From positions 1-42,757 of the forward strand of contig JAFPWS010000007.1 of the NCBI GenBank assembly GCA_017412705.1: DNA of 42,757 nt, read 5' to 3'. Shown here one piece after another: positions 27,391 through 42,002 of this stretch (positions are counted from its first letter, which is position 1; every line of letters begins with the position of its first letter). This DNA comes from Prevotella sp. (GTDB taxonomy: Bacteria > Bacteroidota > Bacteroidia > Bacteroidales > Bacteroidaceae). The translations under genes and the position numbers were made by a program. Under the pieces are notes generated by a model. That model was given only the letters and a program-made list of their open reading frames with translations, was not told where the DNA came from and made no database searches.

Positions 27391-28602
27391 ATGAAGATTC
27401 TATATATCCATCAATACTTTAATATTCCTCAAGGTTCAGGGTGTACACGTTCTTACTGGATTGCAGAGCAACTGATCAGGCGGGGGCATCAGGTGACGAT
27501 GATAACCGCGGCGAGAGGGCAGAAGAATGCAAGGAGTGAGATGGTAGACGGCATCCATGTTGTCTATGTGAAGAACAAATACAGCAACTACATGTCGCCC
27601 TGGCGGAAGGTGCTCTCGTTCCTGAACTTTGTCAGGTTGGCGACGCAGGCAGCCATGAAAGAGAAAGGGGTCGATATGGTATATGCCACTTCAACCCCAT
27701 TGACCGTGGGGGCTATCGCTCTTTTTTTACGAAGGGTGCGAGGGTGGCGGTATGTCTTTGAGGTACGTGACTTGTGGCCGGAGTTCCCCATCCAGATAGG
27801 GGCTGTGCGCAATCCCGTGCTAATCAAGATGCTGCGTTGGTTAGAGCGACGAATCTATCAAAAAGCAGAGCATATAGTAGCTTTGTCGCCAGGAATGAAA
27901 GAGGGAGTGATAAAGGCAGGAACGCCGGCAGAAAAGGTGTCGATGATTCCCAACATGTCGAAGCCGGACCAGTTCTGGCCGAGGGAAAAGAATGAAGAAG
28001 TAGCCGGACAGTTTGGCATTGATACAACAAAGTTCAACGTCATCCATTTCGGGTCGATGGGACCTGCTAATGGGCTCAGCTATATCATTGAGGCTGCCAA
28101 ATACTTGAAAGACCGGGGGGATGATTCGGTTAGGTTTATCTTTATGGGCAGTGGCGCTACGGAGCCTGTCATCAAAAAGCAGGCTGAGCAATACGGCTTG
28201 ACGAACGTGTCCTTCATTGACCGTCAGCCTATGGCAGTGGTGTCGGAGGTGGTGAATCTGTGTGATGCAAGCATCACTACCTTTTTGAACCTGCCTGTTT
28301 TACAGACGAACTCTCCCAATAAGCTCTTTGACTCGTTGTCGGCAGGGAAACCTATTATTGTGAACTCCGCAGGATGGACGAAAGAGATGGTGGAAAAGAA
28401 CGATTGCGGCTTCTTCGCAGATCCGGAAAAGCCTTCTGACTTGGCGGATAGATTATTGCTCTGCAAAGAAGATGCTGAAACATTGGAACGCTGGGGTAAG
28501 AACGCCCGCAGGCTTTCCATAGAAGTATACGACAAAGATATCCTTACAGCGCAGGTGGCAGAGGTGATAGAAAAATCCTCAGCACGTCTTGCGACGGACT
28601 GA
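27391..28602 (+). CDS. Glycosyltransferase family 4, WbuB-like
   Basis: A 403-aa GT-B enzyme. 'ILYIHQYFNIPQGSGCTRSYWIAEQLIRRGHQVTMIT', 'VFEVRDLWPEFPIQIGAVRNP' and 'ERRIYQKAEHIVALSPGMKEGV' match the WbuB subgroup of GT4 that transfers N-acetylfucosamine-type sugars. The donor side shows 'NVIHFGSMGPANGLSYIIEAA' and 'LPVLQTNSPNKLFDSLSAGKPIIVNSAGW'. The exact sugar is inference. It is the last gene of the first half of the polysaccharide operon. Its final codons form one arm of a strong terminator hairpin. Confidence 0.88.
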   Translation: MKILYIHQYFNIPQGSGCTRSYWIAEQLIRRGHQVTMITAARGQKNARSEMVDGIHVVYVKNKYSNYMSPWRKVLSFLNFVRLATQAAMKEKGVDMVYATSTPLTVGAIALFLRRVRGWRYVFEVRDLWPEFPIQIGAVRNPVLIKMLRWLERRIYQKAEHIVALSPGMKEGVIKAGTPAEKVSMIPNMSKPDQFWPREKNEEVAGQFGIDTTKFNVIHFGSMGPANGLSYIIEAAKYLKDRGDDSVRFIFMGSGATEPVIKKQAEQYGLTNVSFIDRQPMAVVSEVVNLCDASITTFLNLPVLQTNSPNKLFDSLSAGKPIIVNSAGWTKEMVEKNDCGFFADPEKPSDLADRLLLCKEDAETLERWGKNARRLSIEVYDKDILTAQVAEVIEKSSARLATD

Positions 28603-28608
28603 GGATTT
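28573..28608 (-). terminator. Terminator shared by convergent units
   Basis: AAATCCTCAG (28573-28582) pairs with CTGAGGATTT (28599-28608), with an inner CGTC-TTGC-GACG stem. On the minus strand the stem is followed by a T-run (ATTTTTC), a good terminator for the HU/smalltalk transcript. On the plus strand it overlaps the last codons of the WbuB-like gene and can slow that transcript too. Confidence 0.7.
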
Positions 28609-28626
28609 GCGGTCAGGGATTTGCGG

Positions 28627-28722
28627 TCAGCGCATGCAACTCTGGACGAGGAATGCCGAGCTGATGGCCGTCAGGATGGTAATCACCATCTGAATGATCT
28701 GTTTCCAGGTTTCCTTTTTCAT
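28627..28722 (-). CDS. Smalltalk micro-protein (31 aa)
   Basis: ATG at 28720-28722, stop TGA at 28627-28629. The protein begins MKKETWKQIIQMVITILTAI and ends in 'QSCMR', that is a short charged start, one hydrophobic segment and a Cys near the end. This fits the Bacteroidales 'smalltalk protein' family, whose members lie beside HU-like genes as here. The hydrophobic segment may insert in the membrane, or the Cys may be a lipobox-like site. The function is unknown. It lies 198 bp after the HU-like gene on the same strand. Confidence 0.75.
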   Translation of the reverse strand: MKKETWKQIIQMVITILTAISSAFLVQSCMR

Positions 28723-28890
28723 AAGTGATGAGTGTTTAGTGTTGAGTGATGAGTGTTAGGGTAGAGTTGGGGAACAAGCATGGCCGGATGGGCTTGATGA
28801 CGGTATGTTGGATGTTGTTGCGGTAGCGCCGCCTAAGGTGTCATAGCACCATCCCTGCCCCATGCTTCTTGCCCCTAAGCCCCCTCCCTT

Positions 28891-28920
28891 CCTCCCCCTG
28901 AAGGGGGAGGTGATGGGGGC
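28891..28920 (+). repeat. REP-like palindrome (copy 4)
   Basis: CCTCCCCC (28891-28898) pairs with GGGGGAGG (28903-28910), followed by the tail TGATGGGGGC. It abuts the stop codon of the HU-like gene and may also serve as its 3' hairpin. Confidence 0.6.
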
Positions 28921-29469
28921 CTACGCAGCCGACTGCTCGGCAATCCAGTCGGCCAGCGGCGTGACCTTCTTGACGTACTGCTTCTTCGTGGGGTCGCTCT
29001 CCTGGGGCGTCAGGTCAATCTTCTCCTCGACACCGTAGGTGGTCAGGGCGCACAGCTCCTTGAAGGCACGCGAGGTGATGTCGTCGTCAGCGGCTCCCTC
29101 GGGGATGAAGCGGATGTGGATGCCGGCGATGTAGAGGGCGGCGTTCCACTTGCCTGCTAGGATGTCGGCCTTGGTGATGCCGCTCTTGACGCTCTCGATG
29201 GTGGGTACGAAGGTGCCCAGGCCGTCAATCTTGACGGGGTTGCCCTGTGCCAGCAGCTCTACCATGCAGCTCACCATCTTGGTCAGCACGCCCTCGATGA
29301 CGTCGCGGCCGAAGATGCAGTTGTGTCCTGCCATGTGGTCGCAGAGGCCGCGCAGCGAGATGGTCTTCTTCTCCACCGCCTTGGGGTAGTACTTGCCGTA
29401 GCCGGGCGAGTTGGCGTTTTCGTTCTTGCGGATGTTGACCTCGAACTGGGGACTTTTTACTTGTGCCAT
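28921..29469 (-). CDS. HU-like DNA-binding protein, Bacteroidetes long form
   Basis: A 182-aa protein. Residues about 40-130 show the HU/IHF fold in the Bacteroidetes variant: 'ISLRGLCDHMAGHNCIFGRDVIEGVLTKMVSCMVELLAQGNPVKIDGLGTFVPTI'-type helices, then a beta-arm region 'IHIRFIPEG'. The N-terminal 'KYYPKAVEKKTIS' matches the substitute-HU style. Compared with the 90-aa HU it has N- and C-terminal extensions (ending 'PLADWIAEQSAA'). It probably bends or packages DNA. It follows the AAA ATPase-DUF6371-DUF4248 genes and precedes smalltalk, the usual order for this module. Four 22-bp repeats lie in its leader. Confidence 0.85.
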   Translation of the reverse strand: MAQVKSPQFEVNIRKNENANSPGYGKYYPKAVEKKTISLRGLCDHMAGHNCIFGRDVIEGVLTKMVSCMVELLAQGNPVKIDGLGTFVPTIESVKSGITKADILAGKWNAALYIAGIHIRFIPEGAADDDITSRAFKELCALTTYGVEEKIDLTPQESDPTKKQYVKKVTPLADWIAEQSAA

Positions 29470-29531
29470 AGTTTTTTGTTAAGTGTTAAGTGTTAATGGT
29501 TAAGGGTTATGGTTCTCTCGGTGACGCGGAG

Positions 29532-29619
29532 TTTGTCGGCATGTAACTACCGGTTTCTCGGTAGGAAACTACCAGTTTGTCGGTAGGAAACCCTTGCTTT
29601 GTCGGTACCTAACTTCAGC
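29532..29619 (-). repeat. Four 22-bp direct repeats in the HU leader
   Basis: Units begin at 29532, 29554, 29576 and 29598, exactly 22 bp apart. The shared core on the plus strand is TTTGTCGG followed by TAGGAAACTACC or variants. GGTAG/CTACC can also pair locally with a GAAA loop. A further TTTGTCGG lies at 29664, in phase (3 x 22). The array lies between a -7 box and the HU start codon, so it is in the 5' leader. Size and phase are like iterons or an autoregulatory operator. Confidence 0.8.
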
Positions 29620-29647
29620 TCGGGCCGCCGCTCCCTCGTTGTCAGTG

Positions 29648-29655
29648 CAAAGATA
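29648..29655 (-). promoter_or_regulatory. -7 box of the HU-smalltalk transcript
   Basis: The minus strand reads TATCTTTG, a consensus Bacteroidetes -7 box, 178 nt before the HU ATG. No TTTG box is seen at the expected upstream position. If used, the leader contains the whole 22-bp repeat array. Confidence 0.5.
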
Positions 29656-29717
29656 CGACATCTTTTGTCGGCACCTGCGCTCGTTGGCGTTCCTTCGCCC
29701 TCCTTGGGGAACAATTT

Positions 29718-29996
29718 CTACGGTTCGCAGAGATATTCGATGATGAGTTCGACCTCCTGGCGGGTGTAGTGCTGGGCCTTGGGGGGATTGCCGAGGGCAC
29801 GGAGCCGCTCACGCAGCTCGCCGTTGTAGTTGATGCGGTAGTTCAGGTTCTTCAGCGCACCCTTCTTGGTCTTGGCGTGGGGGAAGTACAGCATGGCCAG
29901 CTCGGCCTTGCCGTAGCTGCGGATTTCAAACGACTGCACCGGCGGCAGCTCCTGCCGGAGAAGACGGAGAATCTCTTTGATAGCTTTTTCTGTCAT
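29718..29996 (-). CDS. DUF4248 family protein
   Basis: A 92-aa protein with the DUF4248 pattern: 'FEIRSYGKAELAMLYFPHAKTKKGALKNLNYRINYN', 'ELRERLRALG', 'QHYTRQEVELIIEYLCEP'. The layout resembles a small DNA-binding helix-turn-helix-like protein, but no function is established. It lies 27 bp after the DUF6371 gene on the same strand, and an HU gene follows. This grouping recurs in Bacteroidales genomes. It probably acts with the module's ATPase and HU-like proteins. Confidence 0.8.
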   Translation of the reverse strand: MTEKAIKEILRLLRQELPPVQSFEIRSYGKAELAMLYFPHAKTKKGALKNLNYRINYNGELRERLRALGNPPKAQHYTRQEVELIIEYLCEP

Positions 29997-30023
29997 AGGT
30001 GAAATGGTTATTTAAGTTGCCCT

Positions 30024-30728
30024 TCAAAATAGGAAGTCTACGAGGTCAATCTTGGCCGCTTTCTGCCTGGCAGAGGCATGGTCTTCCAAGAAAGTACTGA
30101 CCGTGATGTCAAGGTGACAGGCCCGACGGGCTTGGTCAGCCAGCTCACAGCAGAACAGGTAGTTGTCCATCTCCGCGTCAGTGCGGGGAAACAGCGTGAC
30201 ATGGTGGCCTTGCAGAGGCTCCAACAGTTCGGCGTTAAAGAATACAGGAGAGACGTATGCCATCCAGAGGCTCTGAGGGTAAAGCTCGGAAAGGACTACT
30301 GCCGATGGCTCGGACTCAACGATGCAAACAGGAGAGGATGGGACGCCAACGCTGACGTCAACATCAGGCTTCAACAGGTGCAGGCCGAAAAGACAGTGGC
30401 TGGCCATCACATAGCGGGCGAGGTCAGGACAGCGCGACTTGAGCATTTGTGTTACCCAGCTGTCACCGATATGCCCGTCGTGAAGACGGCCCTGGCGGTC
30501 AATCATCCAATAGATGGTCTTGCCACTGCGGCTCTTGCCTAAGCGATAACGTTCCGCAGCACGGTGCATGGCCTTCTCCGTGAAGCCATAGCGGCTGGTC
30601 AGCTGCAGGCACAGCTCGGAGTCGTCAGCACGGCAGGTTTCCACCATAGGGCGGCGGTGAGGCTCCTTCAGGCCTAACTGCCTGCGCAGGTTCTTGAACG
30701 TATCGGGGAATGCTTCTTCGAATTTCAC
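30024..30728 (-). CDS. DUF6371-like protein with Toprim-like core
   Basis: A 234-aa protein starting at GTG 30728 (MKFEEAFPDTFKNLRRQLGL). Residues about 45-90 ('LTSRYGFTEKAMHRAAERYRLG...TIYWMIDRQGRLHDG') resemble the N-terminal fold of phage/plasmid primase-like proteins. 'SSPVCIVESEPSAVVLSELYP' (about 131-151) is the VESE-type strand of a Toprim-like centre, followed by 'HHVTLFPRTDAEMDNY', where the DxD-like acidic residues fit the second Toprim site. This suggests a primase-related role, probably in nucleic acid handling with the adjacent AAA ATPase, but activity is unproven. It lies 139 bp after the ATPase gene and 27 bp before DUF4248. Confidence 0.7.
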   Translation of the reverse strand: MKFEEAFPDTFKNLRRQLGLKEPHRRPMVETCRADDSELCLQLTSRYGFTEKAMHRAAERYRLGKSRSGKTIYWMIDRQGRLHDGHIGDSWVTQMLKSRCPDLARYVMASHCLFGLHLLKPDVDVSVGVPSSPVCIVESEPSAVVLSELYPQSLWMAYVSPVFFNAELLEPLQGHHVTLFPRTDAEMDNYLFCCELADQARRACHLDITVSTFLEDHASARQKAAKIDLVDFLF

Positions 30729-30785
30729 GACAAAGGAGTGTCAGGTGATGGGGATATCCCCGTGCGAGTTGCCCGGTGAAGGGCG

Positions 30786-30847
30786 CTTCAACCTGCCCCA
30801 CATACTACCTTCTCTCTCGTAGAGAGAAGTACGTATGGGGCTTGAAG
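30786..30847. other. Large imperfect hairpin between ATPase and DUF6371 genes
   Basis: CTTCAA (30786-30791) pairs with TTGAAG (30842-30847). GCCCCA and ATAC pair with GTATGGGGC, and TTCTCTC pairs with GAGAGAA, with small bulges and a TCGTA-type loop. The whole gap 30729-30867 contains no gene. It may be a transcript processing site or a decayed palindromic element. Confidence 0.55.
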
Positions 30848-30867
30848 CCTTCACCTCGGCAGGGATG

Positions 30868-32109
30868 TCAGAAGGGTGCTGCATCATTGTTGTCGAATGG
30901 GAGCTCCTGTTGTTCGGGACTGACGGGGTGCCGGGTACGCAGCAGATAGATTTTCCTGCCGTTGAGTGCGCTGACGGACTGCATGACGACACCTTCGGAA
31001 ACAGCCTTGGACAGCTGCTCGTTGGCGATACGGTCGGTAGTGATGTTCGCCTCCATGCCAATCTTGGTGCGCAGCGCCTCTTCCTCGTACTCCCGGCCCG
31101 GCTCCATACAAGCCTTGAAGAGCGCAGGAAGGTCAAAGATCGTCCGGCGGTTCTCCTTGCCCAGCACATACTTCGGGTTAAACGGAGGCAGCGTCTTGCC
31201 GCTGCCCTCGCGCTGACGCTGGTCGGACAGCTTCTTCTGGGCCTGGAACATGGCTTCCTTCAGCTGTTCCTCCGTGCAACGATAGGGGATACCCTCGTCA
31301 CCGACGGCAAACTTCAGCGTGTCGAGAATATCATACTTGCGGGTGTCGGTCTGGCCCCACGTAAAGATACGCTCCGAGGACTTCTCACACTGGTAGACCT
31401 CGAAGGCCTTGTTCTTCAGCTCGGTACCTATCCAGCCACGCAGGTTGCGGTCCTCCGCCGACTTGTTCTGGTGAAGGATACACACCATGCAGCAGCGCAC
31501 CTCTGACGCCAGGCGCATCAGCCGCTCGATACAGTCCTGTGCCACCACACCGTCGTTGATGTCGGCCACCAGGTCACGGATGCCATCGAGCACCACCAGG
31601 TCGGGATGATACCGGCGCACCGCCGCCTCAAGCATGGACAACCGCTGGTCATAGCCGTCCTGCCGGACATTGAAGATGTCGAACAGTCCCATCGGGAACT
31701 GGCTCTCAGGGATTCCTGTCATCGGTATGACGCGACTCTTCAGGATGTCTTGCGTCGACTCCTCGCTCTGTTCGGTGTCATACCAGAGGACGTGCAGCCT
31801 TTTGGGCTCGATCCGTTCGACGGAGAGCACGGGACTGTGGAAGCTGAGTGCCATGAGGATGCTGCTGACAAAGGTCTTGCCACTCTTGGCCTTGCCGGTG
31901 AGTGCTACCAGCTCGCCACGAGGGAAGCAGGGTTTGTGGAACAGGCGGAAGAGGAAGTCCATCCTCGGCAGTTCCTTGTCAGGCGTGATGCGCCTGTCCT
32001 CCAGACGGCGGAGCATCATCTCCGTCTCGGCAGCCCGCAGCAGTTCCTGCGGTGTCATGGCTGCCTGTTTGACAGCCTGGCCGAGTAGTTTGAAATTGTC
32101 TTGGTTCAT
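30868..32109 (-). CDS. RecA-like AAA ATPase (RepA/DnaB-type)
   Basis: A 413-aa ATPase. Walker A 'GKAKSGKT' (about residues 72-79) sits in the context 'FPRGELVALTGKAKSGKTFVSSIL'. The Walker B strand 'PDLVVLDGIRDLV' has its Asp near 175. 'CCMVCILHQNKSAEDRNLRGWIGTELKNKA' is the sensor-type segment of RepA/AAA_25 helicase-like proteins. A C-terminal region (about 330-413) has a winged-helix-like stretch with 'ITTDRIANEQLSKAVSEGVVMQS'. It resembles the hexameric helicase RepA of plasmids and integrated elements. It leads the opposing-strand module. Upstream lie a -7 box, a perfect palindrome and a divergent broken HTH gene. Confidence 0.85.
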   Translation of the reverse strand: MNQDNFKLLGQAVKQAAMTPQELLRAAETEMMLRRLEDRRITPDKELPRMDFLFRLFHKPCFPRGELVALTGKAKSGKTFVSSILMALSFHSPVLSVERIEPKRLHVLWYDTEQSEESTQDILKSRVIPMTGIPESQFPMGLFDIFNVRQDGYDQRLSMLEAAVRRYHPDLVVLDGIRDLVADINDGVVAQDCIERLMRLASEVRCCMVCILHQNKSAEDRNLRGWIGTELKNKAFEVYQCEKSSERIFTWGQTDTRKYDILDTLKFAVGDEGIPYRCTEEQLKEAMFQAQKKLSDQRQREGSGKTLPPFNPKYVLGKENRRTIFDLPALFKACMEPGREYEEEALRTKIGMEANITTDRIANEQLSKAVSEGVVMQSVSALNGRKIYLLRTRHPVSPEQQELPFDNNDAAPF

Positions 32110-32131
32110 ACTGAGTTATTGATAACGGTGG

Positions 32132-32139
32132 CAAAGATA
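32132..32139 (-). promoter_or_regulatory. -7 box of the ATPase module
   Basis: The minus strand reads TATCTTTG 22 nt before the ATPase ATG. No clear -33 box is seen. The perfect palindrome at 32161-32178 covers roughly the -33 position, as an operator would. Confidence 0.5.
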
Positions 32140-32160
32140 AGGAGAAAACAATAAAGCTTA

Positions 32161-32178
32161 CTTCCGACATGTCGGAAG
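32161..32178. promoter_or_regulatory. Perfect 18-bp palindrome, candidate operator
   Basis: CTTCCGACATGTCGGAAG is a perfect palindrome between the ATPase gene and the divergent HTH-like gene. Its half-site TGTCGGAA shares TGTCGG with the 22-bp repeats near the HU gene. The position around the -33 region fits repression by a dimeric regulator. Confidence 0.65.
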
Positions 32179-32221
32179 CAGTGTTAAATAAATTTTGTTC
32201 AATTAATGATTATTTAGAAAA

Positions 32222-32479
32222 ATGAAACATTCAGATCCGTTCCTGATTGCAATGGGAAAACTGCTCAGTGACTATGCCTCACTGGCTGGTTGTACCTATG
32301 CTGAGGTCTGCAGTGAGCTGTCCATCAGTCCGCAGACCTATTCCGGGGTCTGAAAAGGACAAGTGGCTAACTTTGCTTACTACCGTAAGATATTTCTTTA
32401 CATCCATGGTGAGCTGTATCATTCATGGCAGCGCCAAAAGATGCAGGAAGACTTCATGAAGTTGTTTTTGCGAGACTAA
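32222..32479 (+). pseudogene. Small HTH-like regulator broken by one TGA
   Basis: ATG at 32222 opens a frame of 43 codons (MKHSDPFLIAMGKLLSDYAS... to 'SPQTYSGV') that stops at TGA 32351-32353 and then continues in the same frame for 41 sense codons ('KGQVANFAYYRKIFLYIHGE' and on, ending 'KLFLRD') to TAA 32477-32479. 'TYAEVCSELSISPQTYSGV.KG' looks like a helix-turn-helix, and a CGA-to-TGA change at an Arg codon would explain the break. The full protein would be about 85 aa and lies divergent from the ATPase with the palindrome between. It is probably the lost regulator of the module. The 43-aa product may be non-functional. Confidence 0.65.
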
Positions 32480-32505
32480 AAAGTTCTTTGCTAATGAGAA
32501 AGTAG
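32476..32505 (+). repeat. 30-bp direct repeat, left copy
   Basis: Begins CTAAAAAGTTCTTTGC and ends GAGAAAGTA. It matches the copy at 34276-34305 at 28 of 30 positions. The two starts are exactly 1,800 bp apart. It overlaps the stop of the broken HTH gene. Confidence 0.75.
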
Positions 32506-32526
32506 ATCGCCTTTTTAAGAAGAAAA

Positions 32527-32558
32527 CTTGGAAGTTTGCGGAAAAGTAGTTATCTTTG
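32527..32558 (+). promoter_or_regulatory. Promoter of the 155-aa gene
   Basis: CTTG (32527-32530), 20 nt, then the consensus -7 box TATCTTTG (32551-32558). The ATG is 55 nt further on. The -33 box is imperfect. Confidence 0.55.
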
Positions 32559-32613
32559 CAACTCGATATTATAAAGAAAGACAAGAGAAACGATATAATC
32601 ATATAATTCAAAT

Positions 32614-33081
32614 ATGACACACCTGTCAGATAAGGAGCATAAGGCTCAGATGGAGGATATGAAGTCATTTGACGAGCAGATGCCTTGCGTAGGAATCTTC
32701 TGGTATGACCCGGCGGACAAGACGCTGTTTGGTGTGCGGAAGAAGGAACTGACGCCACAAATGGTAGAGGAGGCGGCGGAAAAGGGTAAGCCCTTCATCA
32801 ACTATCCGCAGCTGCACCGGCAGGTGTGGACTAAGGAATATTTCCGGGCACAGGCTAAGCACACGGCTACAAAGTTCAAGGGTGACTATACCCAGGTGCC
32901 CCGCGGACGTGTGGCGTGGACCATTGACAAGTTCATTGTGCTCGTAGGGAACTGGGCGGAGCCCATCCAGGACGAACTCACAGAGTTGCTGGAGCAGGAG
33001 TTCTCGCTGCCATACTTCGAGTTCGTATATGACGAGCACTGGGACCTCGGTCACGGCTGGAGCGGTGACATGCCCAAATAA
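32614..33081 (+). CDS. Conserved-looking small protein of unknown function (155 aa)
   Basis: I do not recognise a named family. The protein is soluble with no signal peptide. Notable segments are 'MPCVGIFWYDPADKTLFGVRKKELTP' at about 23-48, 'TKFKGDYTQVPRGRVAW' (about 85-101) and the end 'FEFVYDEHWDLGHGWSGDMPK', which is rich in His, Trp and Gly. The 'PRGRVAW...VGNW...HWDLGHGWS' pattern appears in small Bacteroidales proteins of unknown role often found in variable regions. It is transcribed from its own promoter and is the first gene between the 30-bp direct repeats. It might be part of a defence or toxin-antitoxin-like cargo, but no catalytic motif is clear. Confidence 0.75.
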   Translation: MTHLSDKEHKAQMEDMKSFDEQMPCVGIFWYDPADKTLFGVRKKELTPQMVEEAAEKGKPFINYPQLHRQVWTKEYFRAQAKHTATKFKGDYTQVPRGRVAWTIDKFIVLVGNWAEPIQDELTELLEQEFSLPYFEFVYDEHWDLGHGWSGDMPK

Positions 33082-33305
33082 ACGTGGATTAATTCGTAGA
33101 TTTTGTTAAAAAAAAACCTTTAAATACCCATTGTCATCCTGTAAGTGCAGGTAGCACTTTCAAGCTGTTCTGCACGCCCTACTACCACTGGAAGGATATG
33201 AGGAAATACTATTTGAATTAAGTTGGCCGAGTATGGAGAAGGACAGCAGGATAAAGCTGTATGTCCTAAAAGGAAACGCTGGTGCTGGTGTTGCAAGTGT
33301 AGATT

Positions 33306-33335
33306 AACCTTGACCTTAACCTTAACGCTAACCTT
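33306..33335 (+). repeat. Tandem AACCTT hexamers
   Basis: Five consecutive six-base units: AACCTT, GACCTT, AACCTT, AACGCT and AACCTT. Such a run can slip during replication. It lies 60-90 bp upstream of the -7 box of the small three-gene cassette. Confidence 0.6.
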
Positions 33336-33394
33336 TTTGAAGCAAATAAATATAAAAAAACAAGCAGAATACGATAAGTTCCCCAACTTTTTCG

Positions 33395-33402
33395 TATCTT
33401 TG
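33395..33402 (+). promoter_or_regulatory. -7 box of the three-gene cassette
   Basis: TATCTTTG, consensus -7 box, 21 nt before the ATG at 33424. No TTTG at the expected upstream spacing. Confidence 0.5.
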
Positions 33403-33423
33403 CACCAATCTATAAATATTTAT

Positions 33424-33729
33424 ATGGTAGCAACATCTTCAAAAGAATCAGTCGATAGTCAGCATGAGGCAATTCTCAGCAGTGCAGGAGGCTTTACAGC
33501 CTTCAGTTTCGGGGGGTATAATATACGTTTCAAGGCTCCTTACAGTCTGGAGCGATATACTGATGTTGTGAAGTGGCAAAATGGATATTTGGTTGTTATG
33601 GCCAAATACCGCCATAATGCAGAACCAGAAGAAGAATACATCGATCTCAAGCCTATTTTGGATGGGCTTTATATAGAGTCTGATGTCTTTTTAAAACCAA
33701 TTAAAAGCGTACGTATTGCTTATGCCTGA
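33424..33729 (+). CDS. Small protein, first of a three-gene cassette (101 aa)
   Basis: Start set at ATG 33424 (MVATSSKESVDSQHEAILSS), 21 nt after a -7 box. A longer frame from a TTG upstream is not supported. The core 'GGYNIRFKAPYSLERYTDVVKWQNGYLVVMAKYRHN' followed by 'EEEYIDLKPILDGLYIESD' has the look of small beta-rich DUF proteins found in Bacteroides toxin-antitoxin-like pairs, possibly DUF2442-like, but I am not certain. It overlaps the next gene by 8 bp, so the two are translated together. It lies between the 30-bp direct repeats. Confidence 0.7.
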   Translation: MVATSSKESVDSQHEAILSSAGGFTAFSFGGYNIRFKAPYSLERYTDVVKWQNGYLVVMAKYRHNAEPEEEYIDLKPILDGLYIESDVFLKPIKSVRIAYA

Positions 33730-33943
33730 TATTAAAAGTATTGCCGACAAGGCTGATATAATTATCAACGGTTATTCCTTCACTCGTGAGAAGGATGGCA
33801 TCCATGTCCTCAATCTAAACTGCCCAGACAAGGCTGTTGTGCTCAGTGAGGATTGCGAAGTATTAGAGACAACAATGGATGATATCGAACTTTCTATTGT
33901 GAGCAGGTACTTACAGAGTAACTTAAAGTACATGGAGGATTGA
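33722..33943 (+). CDS. Small protein, second of a three-gene cassette (73 aa)
   Basis: Start set at ATG 33722 (MPDIKSIADKADIIINGYSF), which overlaps the upstream stop by 8 bp. The in-frame TTG two codons earlier is less likely. The protein is acidic with alternating strands ('GIHVLNLNCPDKAVVLSED') and a C-terminal helix ('DDIELSIVSRYLQSNLKYMED'). No family recognised. Tight coupling with both neighbours suggests a complex or an antitoxin-like partner. Confidence 0.7.
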   Translation: MPDIKSIADKADIIINGYSFTREKDGIHVLNLNCPDKAVVLSEDCEVLETTMDDIELSIVSRYLQSNLKYMED

Positions 33944-33946
33944 ACA

Positions 33947-34225
33947 ATGCCAAAGTACTATGACTTCAAGGTTGCGGGTTATTACTTGTATTTTACTTCT
34001 TTCTGTGTAGTTGAGTGTATGCACGTCCATGCTAGTGACAGCAAACTCACTGAGGCAGGATCGGCTAAGTTCTTCGTCAAGAGTAATGGTGATACGGTGC
34101 TTCAGAATCGGGGCATCCTCAATGACCGTGAGATAGCAAAAATCTCAGACTTTATTAAGGATCACTATCAGGAGATGTATCTCCGCTGGTCACAGTACAG
34201 CGAAAAAGGGTATTACGAAAAGTAG
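33947..34225 (+). CDS. DUF4160-like small protein (92 aa)
   Basis: Starts at ATG 33947, 3 bp after the previous stop. 'KYYDFKVAGYYLYFTSFCVVECMHVHASD' followed by 'SAKFFVKSNGDTVLQNRGILNDREIAKISDFIKDHYQEMYLRW' resembles the DUF4160 family, small proteins whose conserved 'HVH' (here 'MHVHA') and C-terminal helix suggest a role in toxin-antitoxin-like operons. The family's biochemical function is not established. It is the last gene of the cassette. The right-hand 30-bp repeat begins 51 bp later. Confidence 0.7.
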   Translation: MPKYYDFKVAGYYLYFTSFCVVECMHVHASDSKLTEAGSAKFFVKSNGDTVLQNRGILNDREIAKISDFIKDHYQEMYLRWSQYSEKGYYEK

Positions 34226-34275
34226 TATGGTGCATGATGGCATCGCCATACTCTGCTTACAGAGAATCTGAAAGG

Positions 34276-34305
34276 CTAAAAAGTTCCTTACTAATGAGAA
34301 AGTAA
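34276..34305 (+). repeat. 30-bp direct repeat, right copy
   Basis: Matches 32476-32505 at 28 of 30 positions, with changes at positions 12 and 15 of the unit. A short stem (TTACT/AGTAA) and a T-run (34311-34317) follow within it, so it may terminate the three-gene cassette. Confidence 0.7.
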
Positions 34306-34366
34306 ACCATTTTTTTCCTGTTCTGTTCACTTTCAGTAGCGGTACAGGTGACCGTAGTTTATAATT

Positions 34367-35005
34367 ATGTACCAACATTTCTTCAAACGATTTATTGATT
34401 TCTGGATATCCCTGTTGGCATTGCTGATTCTGTGCATTCCGTTGCTCATTATCTCGATATGCCTTTATATAGCAAATAGCAAAGGAAACCCTTCCCTTGA
34501 GGGAGGGGGTTGGGGTAGGCTTCTGTTTCTTCAGGAGCGCCCAGGCAAGGACGGGAAGATCTTTAAGATTATCAAGTTCAAGACGATGACGGATGAGCGG
34601 GATGCAGAAGGGAATTTGTTGCCTGATGCTGAGCGGCTTACCGAAGTGGGTAGGTTTGTACGCTCGACGAGTATCGACGAACTGCCACAGCTTATCAACG
34701 TTGTGAAGGGCGATATGGCACTGATAGGACCAAGACCTTTGTTAGTGGAATACCTACCGCTATATAGCAAGGAACAGGCTCGCCGCCATGAGGTACGTCC
34801 AGGCATTACCGGCTGGGCCCAGGTCCATGGTCGCAATGCCATCAGCTGGACAGAGAAGTTCAAGTTGGATGTATGGTATGTAGACCATATCAGCCTGATG
34901 ACTGATATCAGGGTTATCTGGTTGACTATCCAGAAGGTGTTGCAACGCGATGGCATCAGTCAGGAAGGTAATGCCACGATGGAGATGTTTGATGGTACGA
35001 ACTAA
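34367..35005 (+). CDS. Initiating phosphoglycosyl transferase (WcaJ/PglC type)
   Basis: A 212-aa monotopic membrane enzyme that starts a repeat unit by moving a phosphosugar from UDP-sugar to undecaprenyl phosphate. It has a hydrophobic re-entrant helix (about 12-36), then 'FLQERPGKDGKIFKIIKFKTMTDERD', the catalytic Asp-Glu pair in 'STSIDELPQLINVVKGDMALIGPRPL', and 'PGITGWAQVHGRNAISW' near the end. Residues about 39-52 ('KGNPSLEGGGWGRL') come from an inserted REP-like palindrome between the helix and the QERPG segment. Homologues usually join these with only a few residues. This is the first glycan gene after the opposing-strand module. No clear promoter box is visible in its 141-bp upstream gap. 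Confidence 0.9.
   Translation: MYQHFFKRFIDFWISLLALLILCIPLLIISICLYIANSKGNPSLEGGGWGRLLFLQERPGKDGKIFKIIKFKTMTDERDAEGNLLPDAERLTEVGRFVRSTSIDELPQLINVVKGDMALIGPRPLLVEYLPLYSKEQARRHEVRPGITGWAQVHGRNAISWTEKFKLDVWYVDHISLMTDIRVIWLTIQKVLQRDGISQEGNATMEMFDGTN
34489..34518 (+). repeat. REP-like palindrome inside a gene (copy 5)
   Basis: CCCTTCCCT (34489-34497) pairs with AGGGAGGGG (34500-34508) with one wobble pair, followed by the tail GTTGGGGTAGG. It is translated as part of 'NPSLEGGGWGR' in the phosphoglycosyl transferase. Confidence 0.65.
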
Positions 35006-35308
35006 AGATGCTATTCTGATAAGCAAATATGATTTATCAATGATTCGAAGCGCTTTAATCATAGTACCTCATCCCGACGATGAGATTAATGTGGCGGGAG
35101 GCCTATTTGAGACATTACAAGCTAATGGGATTTATACCTCTGTAGTCATTTGTACTAATGGAGATCATGTACCTGAATATACAGCAAAAAGGTATAGAGA
35201 GGCACAAAAAGCGCAAAGAATATTCAAGTATCAAGAATTGATTTTTTTGGGTTATGGAGATGGTTATAGAGGTACTCATATTTACGATAGTAAAGAGGGT
35301 GATGCTGT

Positions 35309-36257
35309 AAACTGTGACGAGACCTGGTGCAGAGTGAAGGTAAAAGGCAAGTACGGCAAGAAATACATCTGGTGTATGGTAAACAAGGAAGCCAAGGTTG
35401 CAGTTTACTTTTACGATGACGGAAGCCGTGGTCGCAAGGTGCTCCGTGATTTCCTTGGCGAGACTAAGATTGATGCCCTCCAGTCGGATGGATTCAATGT
35501 TTATATGTATCTGGACAACGAGCTGGTAAATGTAGATCATCTGTGTTGCTTTGCTCATGCCAGAGCTAAATTCCAATATGCATTTGAACAAGGTAAAGAT
35601 GCAGATGCCGAATACTTTATCAGGTTAATAGGATGGCTGTATGATCAGGAAGAACAATACCGATTAAGACATCTTACTCCAGAGCAGATACGAAAGGAAC
35701 GGCAAGGAGAAAAAACAGCAAAAGTCATCAGCCAGATACGGCAGCGGTTAGACAAACTTTTAGCTGACGGAAATGGCATGAGAGGAGACCTGATGCAGAA
35801 GGCACTTAACTATCTGAACAGTTTCTGGAACCAGCTCATCCTTTATCTGAAAGATGGCCGTTATAACATAGATAACTCACTTGCAGAACGCACGCTTCGC
35901 CCTATGACAGTAGAGCGCAAAAACTCGCTGACTTTTGGTAGTCATGCAGGTGCCAAAGTATCGGTTATCTACCACACGTTTATCGAGACGTGTAAGATGT
36001 GTGGAGTATCCACATTGGAATATTTTAAGGAATTCTTCAAGGCTGCGATTAAGCGAGTACAGTTCCAAATGAATTTGAGAAATGTCGAGCGTGAGCAGCT
36101 TCGGATTTTATCCAAGGCTGCGATTAAGCGAGTACAGTTCCAAATGAATTTGAGAAATGTCGAGCGTGAGCAGCTTCGGATTTTATCCAAGGCAATTATG
36201 CAGGGAAGAACAGATTATGAGAACATGTTGCCAATGACTATTGGCATTAAAAAATAA
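35309..36257 (+). mobile_element. Truncated IS66-family transposase (TnpC)
   Basis: This part encodes about 316 residues of IS66 TnpC. 'DETWCRVKVKG' holds the first catalytic Asp, 'LQSDGFNVYMYLD' the second acidic site and 'IDNSLAERTLRPMTVERKNSLTFGS' the Glu. The zinc-finger and leucine-zipper N-terminus is missing, as are tnpA and tnpB, so it cannot transpose alone. It carries a 75-bp tandem duplication. Element ends could not be placed. An imperfect inverted pair GACGCTTCAGG/CCTGAACGTC lies just downstream (36278-36332). Confidence 0.8.
36039..36188 (+). repeat. Exact 75-bp tandem duplication inside the transposase
   Basis: Units 36039-36113 and 36114-36188 are identical and each begins AAGGCTGCGATTAAGCG. 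The protein repeats a 25-residue block ('KAAIKRVQFQMNLRNVEREQ...LS') twice near the C-terminus. Lack of any difference means the duplication is recent. Confidence 0.9.
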
Positions 36258-36384
36258 TAAAAGTTTAATTTAATCTAGACGCTTCAGGTGGCCAAAGCTG
36301 CCCATAACGGCTGTTTTCAAGCCTGAACGTCAAAATTGACAGTTTACCATTCGGAGAGAATAATCGAAAAAACTCTTTCATTTG

Positions 36385-36416
36385 TTTGGAGCGAGACTGC
36401 TTTTTTTGTAATTTTG
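36385..36416 (+). promoter_or_regulatory. Promoter of the Rpn-like gene
   Basis: TTTG (36385-36388), 20 nt, then TAATTTTG (36409-36416): a good Bacteroidetes promoter 30 nt before the ATG at 36447. Confidence 0.7.
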
Positions 36417-36446
36417 CCGTCGGTAAGTGCATAAAGGAAGAAAAGT

Positions 36447-37454
36447 ATGAAGATAGCCAACCCAATATACGATATTGTATTCAAGTATTTGATGGAGGAT
36501 GAGCGTATCGCCCGAACCATTCTCTCCGCCCTCTTGAAGGTGGACGTGGTAGCCGTAGAGGTTCGCCCCCATGAGTATAGCGATGACACCCGCGACACGT
36601 TGTCGGTATTCCGCATAGACTTCGGTGCGACTATTCGCGATGACAGTGGGAAAGAGAAGCTTATTCTCATCGAGTTACAGAAGACGTGGCTTGAGACGGA
36701 GACGCTAAGGTTCCGCCAATACCTTGGTGTACACTATTCCAATCCCAAAAACATGCTGAATGATGGCAATGCCCTGCCGATGGTGGCTGTGTATCTGCTC
36801 GGCCATAAAGTAGGCAATGTTGAAGAGCCGGTGCTTTATGTGAACCACCAGTCGCTCGACTACGACGGTAATGTGGTGACGGTCGGCCTTCCTGATCCTT
36901 TTGTTGACAGTCTGACCCACAACAGCATTATCGTGCAGATTCCCCGCCTGCACGGGCGTATTAACAATCGTCTGGATATGGTGTTGAGCATTTTCGACCA
37001 GACGCGCAAGGATGAGGAAGACGGGCGTCTGCTAAGTATTGACGACCGTGCCTATAAAGGTGATGCCGACATGGAGCATATTCTTCACCGACTGACAATG
37101 GCAGCAGCCGATACAGATATGCGACATCGGATGAATGTGGAGGATGAGTATTTCAGTGCTATTGAGAAGCGAGATACGGAAATTCTTTTCCGTGATCATA
37201 AGATTGCCGAACAGAAAACTCAGCTTGCCGAGCAGAAGTCTCAGCTTGCCGAGCAGAAAACTCAGCTTGCCGAGCAGAAGTCTCAACTTGCCGAGCAGAA
37301 GTCTCAGCTTGCCGAGCAGAAGACTCAGCTTGCCGAGCAGGAGGATATGCTGCGAAATATGATTAAACTTCTGCTTGATGCAGGCAAGTCCATCAGTGAA
37401 ATTGCCAAGAGTTTAGACAAGGACCCTGAAGTAGTAAAGCGACTTTCGATTTAG
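36447..37454 (+). CDS. Rpn/PD-(D/E)XK nuclease family transposase-like protein
   Basis: A 335-aa protein with own promoter. Residues 1-110 form the PD-(D/E)XK nuclease fold of the Rpn (recombination-promoting nuclease) family: 'NPIYDIVFKYLMEDERIARTILSALL', Asp in 'VFRIDFGATIRDD', and 'KLILIELQKTWLETE' with the E-x-K pair. From about residue 253 it has six and a half heptads of '(L)AEQK(T/S)Q', a coiled coil, then 'MIKLLLDAGKSISEIAKSLDKDPEVVKRLSI', a typical C-terminal helix pair of Rpn-like proteins. These proteins are often numerous in Bacteroidales and nick DNA to promote recombination. It is unrelated to glycan synthesis and may have arrived with the IS scar upstream. Confidence 0.85.
   Translation: MKIANPIYDIVFKYLMEDERIARTILSALLKVDVVAVEVRPHEYSDDTRDTLSVFRIDFGATIRDDSGKEKLILIELQKTWLETETLRFRQYLGVHYSNPKNMLNDGNALPMVAVYLLGHKVGNVEEPVLYVNHQSLDYDGNVVTVGLPDPFVDSLTHNSIIVQIPRLHGRINNRLDMVLSIFDQTRKDEEDGRLLSIDDRAYKGDADMEHILHRLTMAAADTDMRHRMNVEDEYFSAIEKRDTEILFRDHKIAEQKTQLAEQKSQLAEQKTQLAEQKSQLAEQKSQLAEQKTQLAEQEDMLRNMIKLLLDAGKSISEIAKSLDKDPEVVKRLSI
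37203..37340 (+). repeat. 21-bp in-frame repeats encoding a coiled-coil heptad
   Basis: Six and a half units start at 37203, 37224, 37245, 37266, 37287, 37308 and 37329. Each encodes LAEQK(T/S)Q. The units are nearly identical at DNA level, so copy number can change by slippage in steps of one heptad without a frameshift. Confidence 0.9.
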
Positions 37455-37545
37455 AAAATAATCGTTTTTATTGTCAGGCCATATCCCTATGGGGGGATAT
37501 AGCTTATAAAGGCTGCTAAGGCCTATTTGGAGAGAGGACTGAAAG

Positions 37546-37701
37546 TATTCCGTGGAAGATTTGGCCATGCTTTCCATCTTGGAATCTCCGCCTTCTATGG
37601 AGGAGCGAGTAGCCTTGTCGGCCTTTTATCAGGAGAAATACTCACTGTAGAAGCAAATTGACGTATTAACTACTATTATTCTTGATCATATTAAGAGATG
37701 A
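37546..37701 (+). pseudogene. 3' remnant of a GT4 gene
   Basis: Codes for 'YSVEDLA.MLSILESPPSMEERVALSAFYQEKYSL' then a TAG (37648-37650), then 'KQIDVLTTIILDHIKR' and TGA 37699-37701. This matches the last 50 residues of the GT4 at 40792-41937 ('YSVEDLAKKMLSTLETPPSM' and on), with a 6-bp deletion and an AAG-to-TAG change. A stretch of about 65 nt around 37600-37663 is almost identical. The TGA overlaps the ATG of the following GT2 gene, so the ancestral gene joined that GT2 directly. Confidence 0.85.
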
Positions 37702-38627
37702 GCGCGTTTTATACCATTATTATTCCTCATTATAATATCCCAGATTTGCTGAGGCGCAGTTTGGCATCCATCCCGCATCGGGAAGATGTTCAGGTTATTG
37801 TTATTGATGATCACAGTAATGACGCATCTCTTTCTGAACTGAGAGAATTACAGACTGCTTTCCCGGCAGTTCAGTTCTTCTACTTAGATAAAAACATGGG
37901 GGCTGGTCATGCCAGGAACGTTGGCATCCGCTATGCAGCAGGTGAATATTTGTTGTTTTTAGATGCAGATGATTACTTTAATGACTGCATCAATGCCTTC
38001 CTGGATGACTATAAAGACGAAGAGGCCGATATAGTATTCTTCAATGCAGACGCAGTAGACCCGATAACCCTGAAGCCTTCAGACAGGGCAAATAAGCTGA
38101 ATTTGTTAATAGACGACTATTTCAGCAGGAAAGCTTCTGATAGTATATCATTACGCTATCTTCATAGTGGACCATGTTGCAAGATGGTGCGGAAAGATCT
38201 GATTGATTGTTTTGGAATCAGTTTTGATGAGATACCTGCGGTAGAAGATGTGATATTCTCGTATCTTGTTGGTTACTATGCTAAAACAATCAAGGTAGAT
38301 GATAGGAAAGTCTACTGTATAACGTATAGATCGGATAGTCTCTCAAATACATACACATCAGCTACACTCTTGATATTAACAGAGGTGATGGGCAAGAAGA
38401 ATCGTTTCATGATAGACCAACAGATACCAATCTTCGACGAGGATCTTCTGATTCCATTTCGAAAGGCTCTGAAAAGCAAGAAATGGTCTTTGCTTAACCA
38501 TTGCTTTTTGAAAGCACGTGAATATGGATTTTCCAAATCTTACATCCTGTACAAAATGGTTAGGATGTCTATTAGATGCAGAATTAAAAATTTCCAAATG
38601 ACATGCATCGGAAGGTGCAAAAAATGA
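37698..38627 (+). CDS. Glycosyltransferase family 2
   Basis: A 309-aa GT-A enzyme: 'YTIIIPHYNIPDLLRRSLASI', 'VQVIVIDDHSNDAS', 'GAGHARNVGIRYAAGEYLLFLDADDYF' with the DAD metal site, 'HSGPCCKMVRKDLID' and 'PAVEDVIFSYLVGYYAKTIKV', where the Glu-Asp pair is the usual catalytic region. It is paralogous to the GT2 at 21960. Its start overlaps the end of the GT4 remnant (ATGA). It adds one sugar of the repeat unit. A decayed second C-terminus of the same kind lies directly downstream. Confidence 0.9.
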   Translation: MSAFYTIIIPHYNIPDLLRRSLASIPHREDVQVIVIDDHSNDASLSELRELQTAFPAVQFFYLDKNMGAGHARNVGIRYAAGEYLLFLDADDYFNDCINAFLDDYKDEEADIVFFNADAVDPITLKPSDRANKLNLLIDDYFSRKASDSISLRYLHSGPCCKMVRKDLIDCFGISFDEIPAVEDVIFSYLVGYYAKTIKVDDRKVYCITYRSDSLSNTYTSATLLILTEVMGKKNRFMIDQQIPIFDEDLLIPFRKALKSKKWSLLNHCFLKAREYGFSKSYILYKMVRMSIRCRIKNFQMTCIGRCKK

Positions 38628-38640
38628 TAGAGGGAAAAGG

Positions 38641-38754
38641 ATTTGCTTGAAAGTCACCGGCATTGCTAGAAAATATGGATTCTCAAAATGGTATATTCTG
38701 TATTTAATTGCCAAAAAGTCTGTACAATGCAGAATCGGCAGGTACTTCTCATAA
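38641..38754 (+). pseudogene. 3' remnant of a second GT2 gene
   Basis: A frame without a start encodes 'ARKYGFSKWYILYLIAKKSV' and then 'QCRIGRYFS' to TAA 38752-38754. It matches the end of the intact GT2 just upstream ('AREYGFSKSYILYKMVRMSIRCRIKN') with many substitutions. It looks like the last codons of a lost GT2 paralogue left in the 210-bp gap before the GT8 gene. Confidence 0.7.
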
Positions 38755-38837
38755 TATGAAAAAACAAAACTATCATCTTTTATCTCCTTCTATCTCCAAG
38801 GCAAGCAGAGCTTGCGAAAGTTAAGTGGTTTTATCCT

Positions 38838-39812: not shown

Positions 39813-39836
39813 CAATCCAGGTTGAGAAGGAAATAT

Positions 39837-40763: not shown

Positions 40764-40791
40764 AGTTTTAAATCCTATACAAAAACAAGCT

Positions 40792-41937: not shown

Positions 41938-41949
41938 CAATGACTCAAA

Positions 41950-41978
41950 TGGTTTTATCCTATGAATAAGATGGATAT
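41950..41978 (+). pseudogene. 5' remnant of a GT8 gene
   Basis: 29 bases match 38826-38854 (just before and at the start of the GT8 gene) with one mismatch, including TGGTTTTATCCTATGAATAA. The short frame then gives only 'MNKMDMFSQIR' before a TAG. It shows that a GT8 gene once followed the GT4 gene here and was lost before the GT2 at 42003. Confidence 0.8.
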
Positions 41979-42002
41979 GTTTTCACAGATTAGATAGAAG
42001 AC

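Follow-up and report, generated by a model that had tools for sequence, protein, structure and literature searches.

Programmed recoding in bacterial genes is recognized by coding that is conserved on both sides of a break and by a conserved context of the break (PMC5009743, in the parts of the article that were accessible). For Prevotella, the passages found in that article report only a hop in an adhesin gene of P. loescheii. In this study, we analyzed a stretch of 42,757 nucleotides from Prevotella sp. (contig JAFPWS010000007.1, positions 1 to 42,757, one whole contig; hereafter, the window), in which a plus-strand capsule locus is interrupted by a module of five minus-strand genes (28627-32109) for a helicase-like ATPase, a DUF6371 protein, a DUF4248 protein, an HU-family protein, and the small protein smalltalk. 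A small helix-turn-helix (HTH)-like gene is divergent from this module, and the in-frame stop that it carries looks, in sequence comparisons, like programmed recoding. As in the described cases, in-frame coding is conserved across a conserved stop. However, it differs from the cases in the accessible text in that it lies in a chromosomal HTH-like gene, that one site has breaks of both the stop and the -1 type, and that the stops are TAA or TGA and not TAG.

The module can also be compared with other systems. It resembles the IncQ/RSF1010-type replicon, which has a RepA helicase, a primase, and iterons, in its RecA-fold helicase-like ATPase of AAA_25 (PF13481; presumably also the family of RSF1010 RepA), in a gene of primase type, and in repeats with a constant period, which is 22 bp. 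However, the putative primase of the module is of the Toprim/DnaG type and not of the RepB' type, no RepC-like match was found among the module proteins in Pfam and NCBIfam, and the module is chromosomal. In addition, the PDB matches of the ATPase include no RepA chain. A possible counterpart of the IncQ iterons is the 22-bp period, which reaches p ≤ 0.01 in 18 of 40 regions between DUF4248 and HU.

Tn4555-type elements contain an AAA ATPase beside a DUF6371 protein, together with integrase, excisionase, and tnp (PMC13183296, accessible parts), whereas the window module has none of these three and contains DUF4248, HU, and smalltalk in addition. In Porphyromonas gingivalis, the K-antigen capsule locus also has an HU gene, PG0121, which shares a transcript with the capsule genes (PMC3969353, accessible parts); the HU gene of the window, in contrast, is on the opposite strand and, judging by gene orientation, in another operon. 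In the open-access literature searched, as far as its text was available, we found no function for the recurrent module, and neither the module itself nor the stop in the HTH-like gene was the subject of any paper; neither module nor stop is described in the accessible text of PMC3969353, PMC6231650, PMC10434189, PMC10394638, PMC13183296, and PMC5009743.

The Interrupted Regulator Gene

The initial annotation of the window had credited the module with its own promoters, repeats, a palindrome, and a divergent HTH gene. The boxes, repeats, and palindrome are present; however, the HTH gene is not intact, because an in-frame TGA interrupts it while its frame continues open (table 1). The same break was found in a different HTH-like gene (locus L071, genome G018; loci, genomes, and contigs carry L, G, and C numbers). 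In addition, it occurs in L150, L151, L192, L133, L137, L142, L193, L181, and L198, and in each of these the gene is divergent from the ATPase gene. One of the carriers, Xylanibacter brevis ATCC 19188 (L137), is an isolate.

Profiles A2, A3, and A4 of these genes carried an X at the stop position, and the genome searches read through stops and counted them. All were searched within the genus only, A4 and A2 in 348 genomes each and A3 in 346. Matches at E < 1e-10 that spanned 80% or more of the profile, some of them profile source sequences, each had exactly one internal stop: TGA in 5 of 5 genes for A4, TAA in 6 of 6 for A2, and TAA in 12 of 12 rows for A3. The A4 search gave 14 rows. Six genes at E ≤ 3e-5 had one TGA each (in G000, G191, G135, G307, G268, and, partial, G127), and seven rows at E 0.001-0.009 were mixed, four of them, including L233, being without a stop. 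Meanwhile, the other seven rows of A2 were partial or frame-changed. A3 gave 12 further partial rows, eight of which had one stop, and a frame-changed copy was found with it in genome G032.

We then counted distinct genes over the loci searched, defined as distinct 51-nt contexts at E ≤ 1e-4 with at least 75% profile coverage. There were 31 distinct stop-type genes, which are related sequences and not 31 independent cases; 16 had served in one of four profiles and 15 had not. Each of the 31 is interrupted by a single internal stop, which lies at the homologous codon. The stop is TAA in 23 genes, TGA in 8, and TAG in none, the base 3' of it is A (22), G (8), or T (1), and conserved residues follow at once, namely K, N, T, S, or D and then mostly G. 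As expected of recoding, the codon before the stop is also restricted, to GTC (23), GCC (6), or ATC (2). Codon usage alone does not account for the third-base C in all 31 genes, since among the Val codons of the window GTC accounts for 116 of 513 in 16 genes of the capsule locus and for 25 of 54 in three genes of the module. Furthermore, 30 of the genes are divergent from a helicase- or primase-like open reading frame (ORF) whose start lies 110-791 nt away (exception, L368); this neighbor was called by eye where its first 45 residues resemble the ATPase or a BT4734-type protein.

In most of the pairs compared, the two halves of the gene are both under purifying selection, in one frame. In nine pairs, the nonsynonymous rate (dN) was below the synonymous rate (dS) before and after the stop wherever dS was computable, by about 3-7 times except after the stop in L133/L137. 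For example, dN/dS values were 0.24/0.70 before and 0.19/1.33 after the stop in L193/L181, 0.22/0.73 and 0.22/1.07 in L238/L241, and 0.04/0.21 and 0.08/0.41 in the window gene and L225. In addition, seven distinct genes are broken at this position by a change of the second half into the -1 frame: L135, L140 (the same as L243), L138, L145, L146 (the same as L247), L125, and L244. Differences were mainly at third positions in 8 of 9 alignable distinct pairs of this type (exception, L138/L145), and the remaining pairs were too distant for an ungapped position count. A similar break in L148 was judged by eye.

In L233, an ordinary XRE-like protein, Trp-Glu-Cys-Gly lies opposite Val-stop-x-Gly (aligned by eye). 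Because the stop stands where an ordinary XRE protein has Glu, a whole HTH domain would be made only by recoding of the stop, or by a -1 shift. As a control, of 67 weak partial matches to other HTH-like proteins in an order-wide search with profile A5, 64 had no stop, and thus this profile is able to find uninterrupted HTH proteins.

A further observation concerns the VapE-type modules described below. In L085 (13280-13805) and L093, the divergent gene has a nearby ATG that is out of the coding frame, and in both of these related copies the ATG lies just before an A6G run. From these two similar sequences, it is possibly another frame-change gene.

Composition of the Module and Its Surroundings

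The features of the module are collected in table 1. The five genes share the minus strand and have plus-strand glycan genes on both sides, and therefore the initial view that they split a capsule locus holds. Of the two limits given for the module, 28573 marks an inverted repeat and falls within the 3' end of the neighboring glycosyltransferase gene (27391-28602), and 32479 is the end of the divergent HTH frame. The plus-strand flanks encode NusG-like (in the UpxY position), Wzc-like, and Wza-like proteins and a pyruvyl transferase, as well as GT2 and GT4 proteins, a UDP-sugar dehydrogenase, and a sugar transferase. Taken stretch by stretch, the G+C content is 0.56-0.59 inside the module and about 0.40-0.50 in its surroundings.

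Table 1. Features of the module and of the divergent gene in the window
Feature	Position	Strand	Remarks
AAA_25 ATPase, RecA-fold helicase-like	30868-32109	-	PF13481, E 8.9e-12; Walker A GKAKSGKT
DUF6371, probable Toprim-type primase domain	30024-30728	-	PF19898, E 1.5e-24
DUF4248 protein	29718-29996	-	PF14053, E 5.3e-22
HU-family protein, HU-HIG type	28921-29469	-	PF18291, E 6.3e-16; TIGR01201 below cut-off
smalltalk, 31 aa	28627-28722	-	NF033879, E 3.3e-12; PF20096, E 7.9e-12
HTH-like gene, divergent, stop-interrupted	32222-32479	+	ORF from 32222 stops at the TGA below; same frame open past it to 32479
Internal stop TGA of the HTH-like gene	32351-32353	+	GTC before, AAA GGA after
ORF, 155 aa	32614-33081	+	No Pfam match; adjoins the HTH gene in relatives L071 and L151 too
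Inverted repeat, then T run on the minus strand	28573-28608	-	Overlaps 3' end of glycosyltransferase gene
Direct repeats, 22-bp period	29530-29614		DUF4248-HU interval; the HU promoter-like box is upstream
TATCTTTG box	29648-29655	-	Probable -7 element of the HU-smalltalk transcript
TATCTTTG box	32132-32139	-	Probable -7 element of the ATPase gene
Perfect 18-bp palindrome CTTCCGACATGTCGGAAG	32161-32178		Divergent promoter region, between AAA and HTH genes
Stem-loop	30798-30840		Between ATPase and primase genes

The content of the module is replication-like and not that of glycan synthesis, in agreement with what had been proposed from the window. For the ATPase, there are matches to phage DnaB and primase/helicase families (PHROG), and its profile weakly matches RadA and Twinkle chains (E 0.001-0.005). 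The Walker A pattern is present in 79 of 81 ATPase sequences, and the nearest relatives, among the best 80 of 221 matches, are from uncultured Prevotella, Prevotella sp. tf2-5, and Xylanibacter. For DUF6371, a Toprim-like pattern (VVEAEKTA ... FPDTD) is found in many relatives. The Toprim Glu and the second Asp are invariant in 25 aligned sequences. The DxD-like motif lacks its first Asp in the window (FPRTD), L126, and L166, which have Arg there, in L151 (Ala), and in L164 (Tyr). In relatives L138 and L142, the DUF6371 protein starts with part of a CHC2 zinc finger, as in DnaG primases, and for this reason we take the family for a primase; the finger was not found in the window protein by the Pfam scan.

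The smalltalk protein has a basic N-terminus, a hydrophobic stretch, and a lipobox-like VQSC followed by two residues. The Cys is present in 38 of 38 rows and lies 0-5 residues from the end in 37, mostly within VQSC (row L160 has no fitting start); in a separate set of 24, only L086 lacks it. Thus arranged, smalltalk resembles a lipoprotein signal peptide or the pheromones derived from such peptides, with the difference that it has almost no mature part after the Cys. A longer smalltalk-like peptide (86 aa, with a hydrophobic stretch and SSSC) is encoded between DUF4248 and HU in L089 (10143-10403). The amidase that follows in related modules belongs to Amidase_2 (PF01510), and its three zinc-ligand-like motifs are found in 37, 23, and 22 of 40 matches. 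A PADLOC scan of the five module proteins, which did not include the amidase, gave no match, and a defense system is rejected on this ground.

An apparent second copy of the module in the genome proved to be a contig overlap, since C63:1-13384 equals window 29374-42757 at 99.99%; C63 extends the capsule locus past the window end. In addition, the window ORF at 34950-36257 begins as a PIG-L-type deacetylase and continues in frame into an IS66 transposase tail, and it is probably a glycan gene truncated by an IS66 insertion. A tandem duplication of 75 bp (97%) lies at the end of this ORF (36033-36182).

Recurrence and Variants

To describe recurrence, we used the best 80 of 221 ATPase matches (AAA-type loci), which lie on contigs of 3-21 kb, many cut short at contig ends. 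The ATPase gene is followed by DUF6371 on the module strand in 72 of the 80 loci, by DUF4248 as well in 56, and by HU in 40. The full five-gene order through smalltalk was found in 32 loci, and an amidase gene follows smalltalk in 29 of these. The window has no amidase, and its gap between smalltalk and the glycosyltransferase gene is too small for such a gene. Among the 47 loci with at least 5 kb past the ATPase start, 31 extend to HU and 26 to smalltalk. Thus, the five-gene order does recur across genomes. DUF4248 is on the strand opposite to the module in four loci.

A divergent gene with the in-frame stop was found in 10 of the 80 loci and the -1 type in 6, with L148 added by eye. At E ≤ 0.001, ATPase matches occurred in 33 of 100 relatives, the own genome included, and many were distant. 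DUF4248 was above the cut-off in 64 of 200 genomes of the same genus, at up to 9 places per genome.

The enzymes at the head of the module can be exchanged. ATPase and DUF6371 are replaced by a BT4734-like_N/VapE-like protein in L085 and L094, by a CHC2 primase and an unassigned 481-aa protein in L089, and, according to annotation, by DnaB in L381. In these modules DUF4248 and HU are retained, and smalltalk and the amidase are present in some.

Promoter-Like Signals and Repeats

TAnnTTTG boxes, which we take to be the Bacteroidetes -7 box, stand upstream of both the AAA and the HU genes. By its sequence, the inverted repeat at 28573-28608 is probably the terminator of the minus-strand module operon, and the palindrome is a candidate operator. 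In 40 regions between DUF4248 and HU, a lag of 22 was above 60 of 60 shuffles in 17 regions, compared with 10 and 9 regions at lags 20 and 21 and with 0-5 at any other lag in the range 15-30; the shuffles preserve base composition only. Lag 14, mostly from simple repeats, was the best lag in 8 regions. The sequence of the 22-bp-period repeats varies from locus to locus. The box lies upstream of the repeats in 14 of the 18 regions with a significant period and downstream in 4.

Association with Glycan Loci

Glycan genes were identified with the wca, rfb, and wec genes of E. coli K-12 and the window's own glycan genes as seeds. Matches per 10 kb numbered 0.51 in AAA-type loci (24 of 80 with at least one), 0.19 in DUF4248 loci (7 of 40), and 0.10 in random 20-kb stretches drawn from four genomes of the genus (4 of 20). 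Hence the density is about 5 times higher around AAA-type modules than in random stretches. The proposed recurrence near surface loci is borne out to this extent, but it is not exclusive, because 56 of the 80 loci, many on short contigs, have no glycan match. In the closest 27 loci (L125-L151), 15 have one. A Pfam scan of 128 neighboring genes from the 34 loci with genes on both sides gave AAA_14 most often (6) and, among other families, Glycos_transf_1 (5), Epimerase (4), and Bac_transf (2).

In the wider set of DUF4248 genes, most lie away from capsule markers. Among the 75 matches listed for 28 chosen genomes, with many short contigs, those with a Bac_transf or Poly_export match no farther than 10, 20, 30, and 50 kb away numbered 5, 7, 9, and 10, respectively, against upper-bound expected coverages of 2.9, 5.0, 6.9, and 10.2%. 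The link of DUF4248 to capsule loci across the genus is weak, and a general one is rejected.

We also read 8 of the 11 Bacteroides, Parabacteroides, and Phocaeicola records listed, which are from few strains and mostly one sample; seven had flanks. Modules L380, L381, L382, L384, and L386 directly adjoin glycan genes, a glycan gene is 3.5 kb away in L385, and there is none in the flanks of L383.

Orientation was judged from the HU, smalltalk, amidase, and helicase genes. Twelve loci have glycan genes on both sides (the window, L072, L103, L132, L134, L149, L150, L170, L203, L380, L382, and L386), and in 11 of them the module is antiparallel to all identified glycan genes. L134 is antiparallel to its nearest glycan gene on either side and not to two more distant ones. 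In L103, L380, and L386, DUF4248 itself is oriented with the glycan genes. For the 24 AAA-type loci with glycan matches, 15 are antiparallel only, 8 parallel only, and 1 both, and thus one-sided loci have at most a weak orientation bias. We conclude that the module favors glycan loci and is mostly antiparallel where flanked on both sides, and that it is not a part of capsule synthesis.

Evidence for Spread

Near-identical units were found at different sites. A unit of about 5.7 kb, made up of pieces with 86-94% identity, is common to L085 and L093, which come from two genomes and differ in their flanks, and L089 and L090, at different sites of one genome, are 88-99% identical from promoter to terminator. 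These copies indirectly support a spread of the unit. The module had been called semi-mobile, and the shared units support this name indirectly; its suggested role in exchange or copy control of capsule loci was neither supported nor contradicted by the analysis. By eye, no end repeats or target duplication were seen in the near-identical copies, and Pfam and NCBIfam found no integrase, mobilization, or packaging gene among the window module genes. No empty insertion site was readable through the UbiA or xseA neighbors, the UbiA contexts being too different. An annotated relative, L380, has an integrase beyond the glycan genes. In Parabacteroides distasonis, a site-specific integrase gene (L385:10036-10968) directly adjoins the module and is divergent from it.

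A plasmid or phage form of the module was considered and rejected, the ATPase matches in 18 plasmid and 13 phage records being 27-38% identical over 44-63% of the length. Many of these plasmid records are probably chromosome pieces deposited as plasmids. ATPase matches in 18 viral contigs had 25-36% identity, and DUF4248 matches in 9 phage records had 30-52%. A circular record of 3850 bp from Bacteroides finegoldii (L379, NZ_OY725970.1) combines DUF4248 with a primase/helicase, a nucleotidyltransferase, and an antitoxin, and its annotation contains no HU or amidase. It is possibly a free form of the module or a mis-assembly.

Discussion

The explanation that we favor, at about an even chance, is that the window holds one copy of a chromosomal replication-type module that recurs in Bacteroidales, with a divergent, stop-split regulator, whose full-length product arises through recoding and sets the helicase-primase operon. 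The module would consist of an exchangeable primase-helicase part, followed by DUF4248, HU, smalltalk, and the peptidoglycan amidase that is missing here, and it probably originated as a plasmid or phage replication region. Some Prevotella-like modules, that of the window included, would be controlled by the small divergent HTH gene. Translation of this gene would usually end after about 43-55 codons and give a half-domain, and rare readthrough would supply a small amount of the full-length regulator. The latter may bind within the shared promoter region, at a site like the palindrome, and thereby set the helicase-primase operon, presumably by repression. HU and smalltalk would have their own promoter-like box upstream of the 22-bp repeats. 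As to its output, our best guess is that the module unwinds and primes DNA locally, with HU at the repeats.

Several observations weigh against this explanation. A recognizable split gene is present in only 16 of the 80 AAA-type loci, plus L148 by eye, and 74 of the 80 have at least 600 nt of upstream sequence. With profile A5, only the window's own gene was a strong match in 393 genomes of the order. L233 (E 1.5e-5) is one uninterrupted match above the same cut-off as the stop-type genes, and the divergent HTH-like gene of a Bacteroides ovatus module is uninterrupted and seems, by eye, to lack the stop-bearing loop. After the stop, L133/L137 show weak constraint (dN 0.85, dS 1.12). TAA is usually hard to read through, and no common RNA structure was found around the stop, with local hairpins in some sequences. 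Read with TGA as W, the window gene is below all Pfam cut-offs (HTH_Tnp_1, E 0.04), so that the label "HTH" rests on similarity to XRE proteins. Finally, the half-site of the palindrome is not generally common to the repeats (permutation p 0.34).

Other kinds of decoding at the stop were also considered. Given that most stops are TAA and none is TAG, and that there are breaks of the -1 type, sensing of suppressor tRNAs or recoded phages is disfavored. The TAA stops also disfavor selenocysteine and pyrrolysine.

The main rival to recoding is a split gene, in which two HTH half-domains are made as separate polypeptides that assemble and the break only separates them. A need for separation would fit a break maintained by two unrelated means, the in-frame stop and the -1 frame; however, conserved residues come right after the stop with no conserved start codon seen there, and the break lies inside a small domain. 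We consider a split protein rather unlikely. Decay of the regulator into a pseudogene with a mutational hot spot is unlikely to a far greater degree. Some copies do look degraded, such as the fragments in genome G032, but all 31 genes have one stop only, at one codon and after a third-base C, and dN is below dS on both sides of it in the computable pairs.

Other explanations concern the module and its neighbors. HU might act on the neighboring glycan operon in the manner of PG0121, which adjoins the capsule operon with which it is co-transcribed and whose loss lowers capsule transcription (PMC3969353, accessible parts). The enrichment of glycan genes around AAA-type modules, and their frequency beside the Bacteroides modules read, would suit such a capsule regulator. 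Nevertheless, the window HU gene is antiparallel to the glycan genes, other modules lie among housekeeping-type genes, and the helicase and primase would be left unexplained, and we think this role improbable. A semi-mobile cassette that spreads, or that aids the exchange of capsule loci, has a similarly small probability in our judgment. It would be consistent with the near-identical units in different flanks or at two sites of one genome, the elevated G+C content, and the integrase gene beside one Parabacteroides module. However, the window module has no recombinase, neither terminal repeats or target duplication (by eye) nor a readable empty site were found, and ordinary recombination could give the same promoter-to-terminator unit as that shared by L089 and L090. 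Somewhat less probable still is lysis or abortive infection, in which smalltalk lets the amidase reach the wall upon induction of the module. The regular position of the amidase after smalltalk and its zinc-ligand-like motifs speak for such a function; on the other side are the absence of the amidase in the window, the lipobox-like motif at the end of smalltalk, and the module proteins without a PADLOC match (the amidase being outside that scan).

Beyond the single locus, the recoding explanation leads to a more tentative proposal, which we put somewhat below an even chance: Prevotella and its relatives may have a family of small HTH-type regulators with a break at one codon of the DNA-binding domain, which would serve as a termination gauge. 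If this is true, the break, either a stop after NYC or a -1 change, would each time be in a gene divergent from a primase-helicase/HU/smalltalk module. An operon of replication enzymes would then respond to how the ribosome is faring, and in some cells this switch would lie inside the capsule loci. To our knowledge, conserved stops inside chromosomal bacterial genes are rare, apart from selenocysteine and a few autoregulated factors. Here, such a stop lies in the probable regulator of a module found repeatedly around the surface-polysaccharide loci of bacteria from gut and rumen, and it may provide a handle on the role of their HU, DUF4248, and smalltalk genes.

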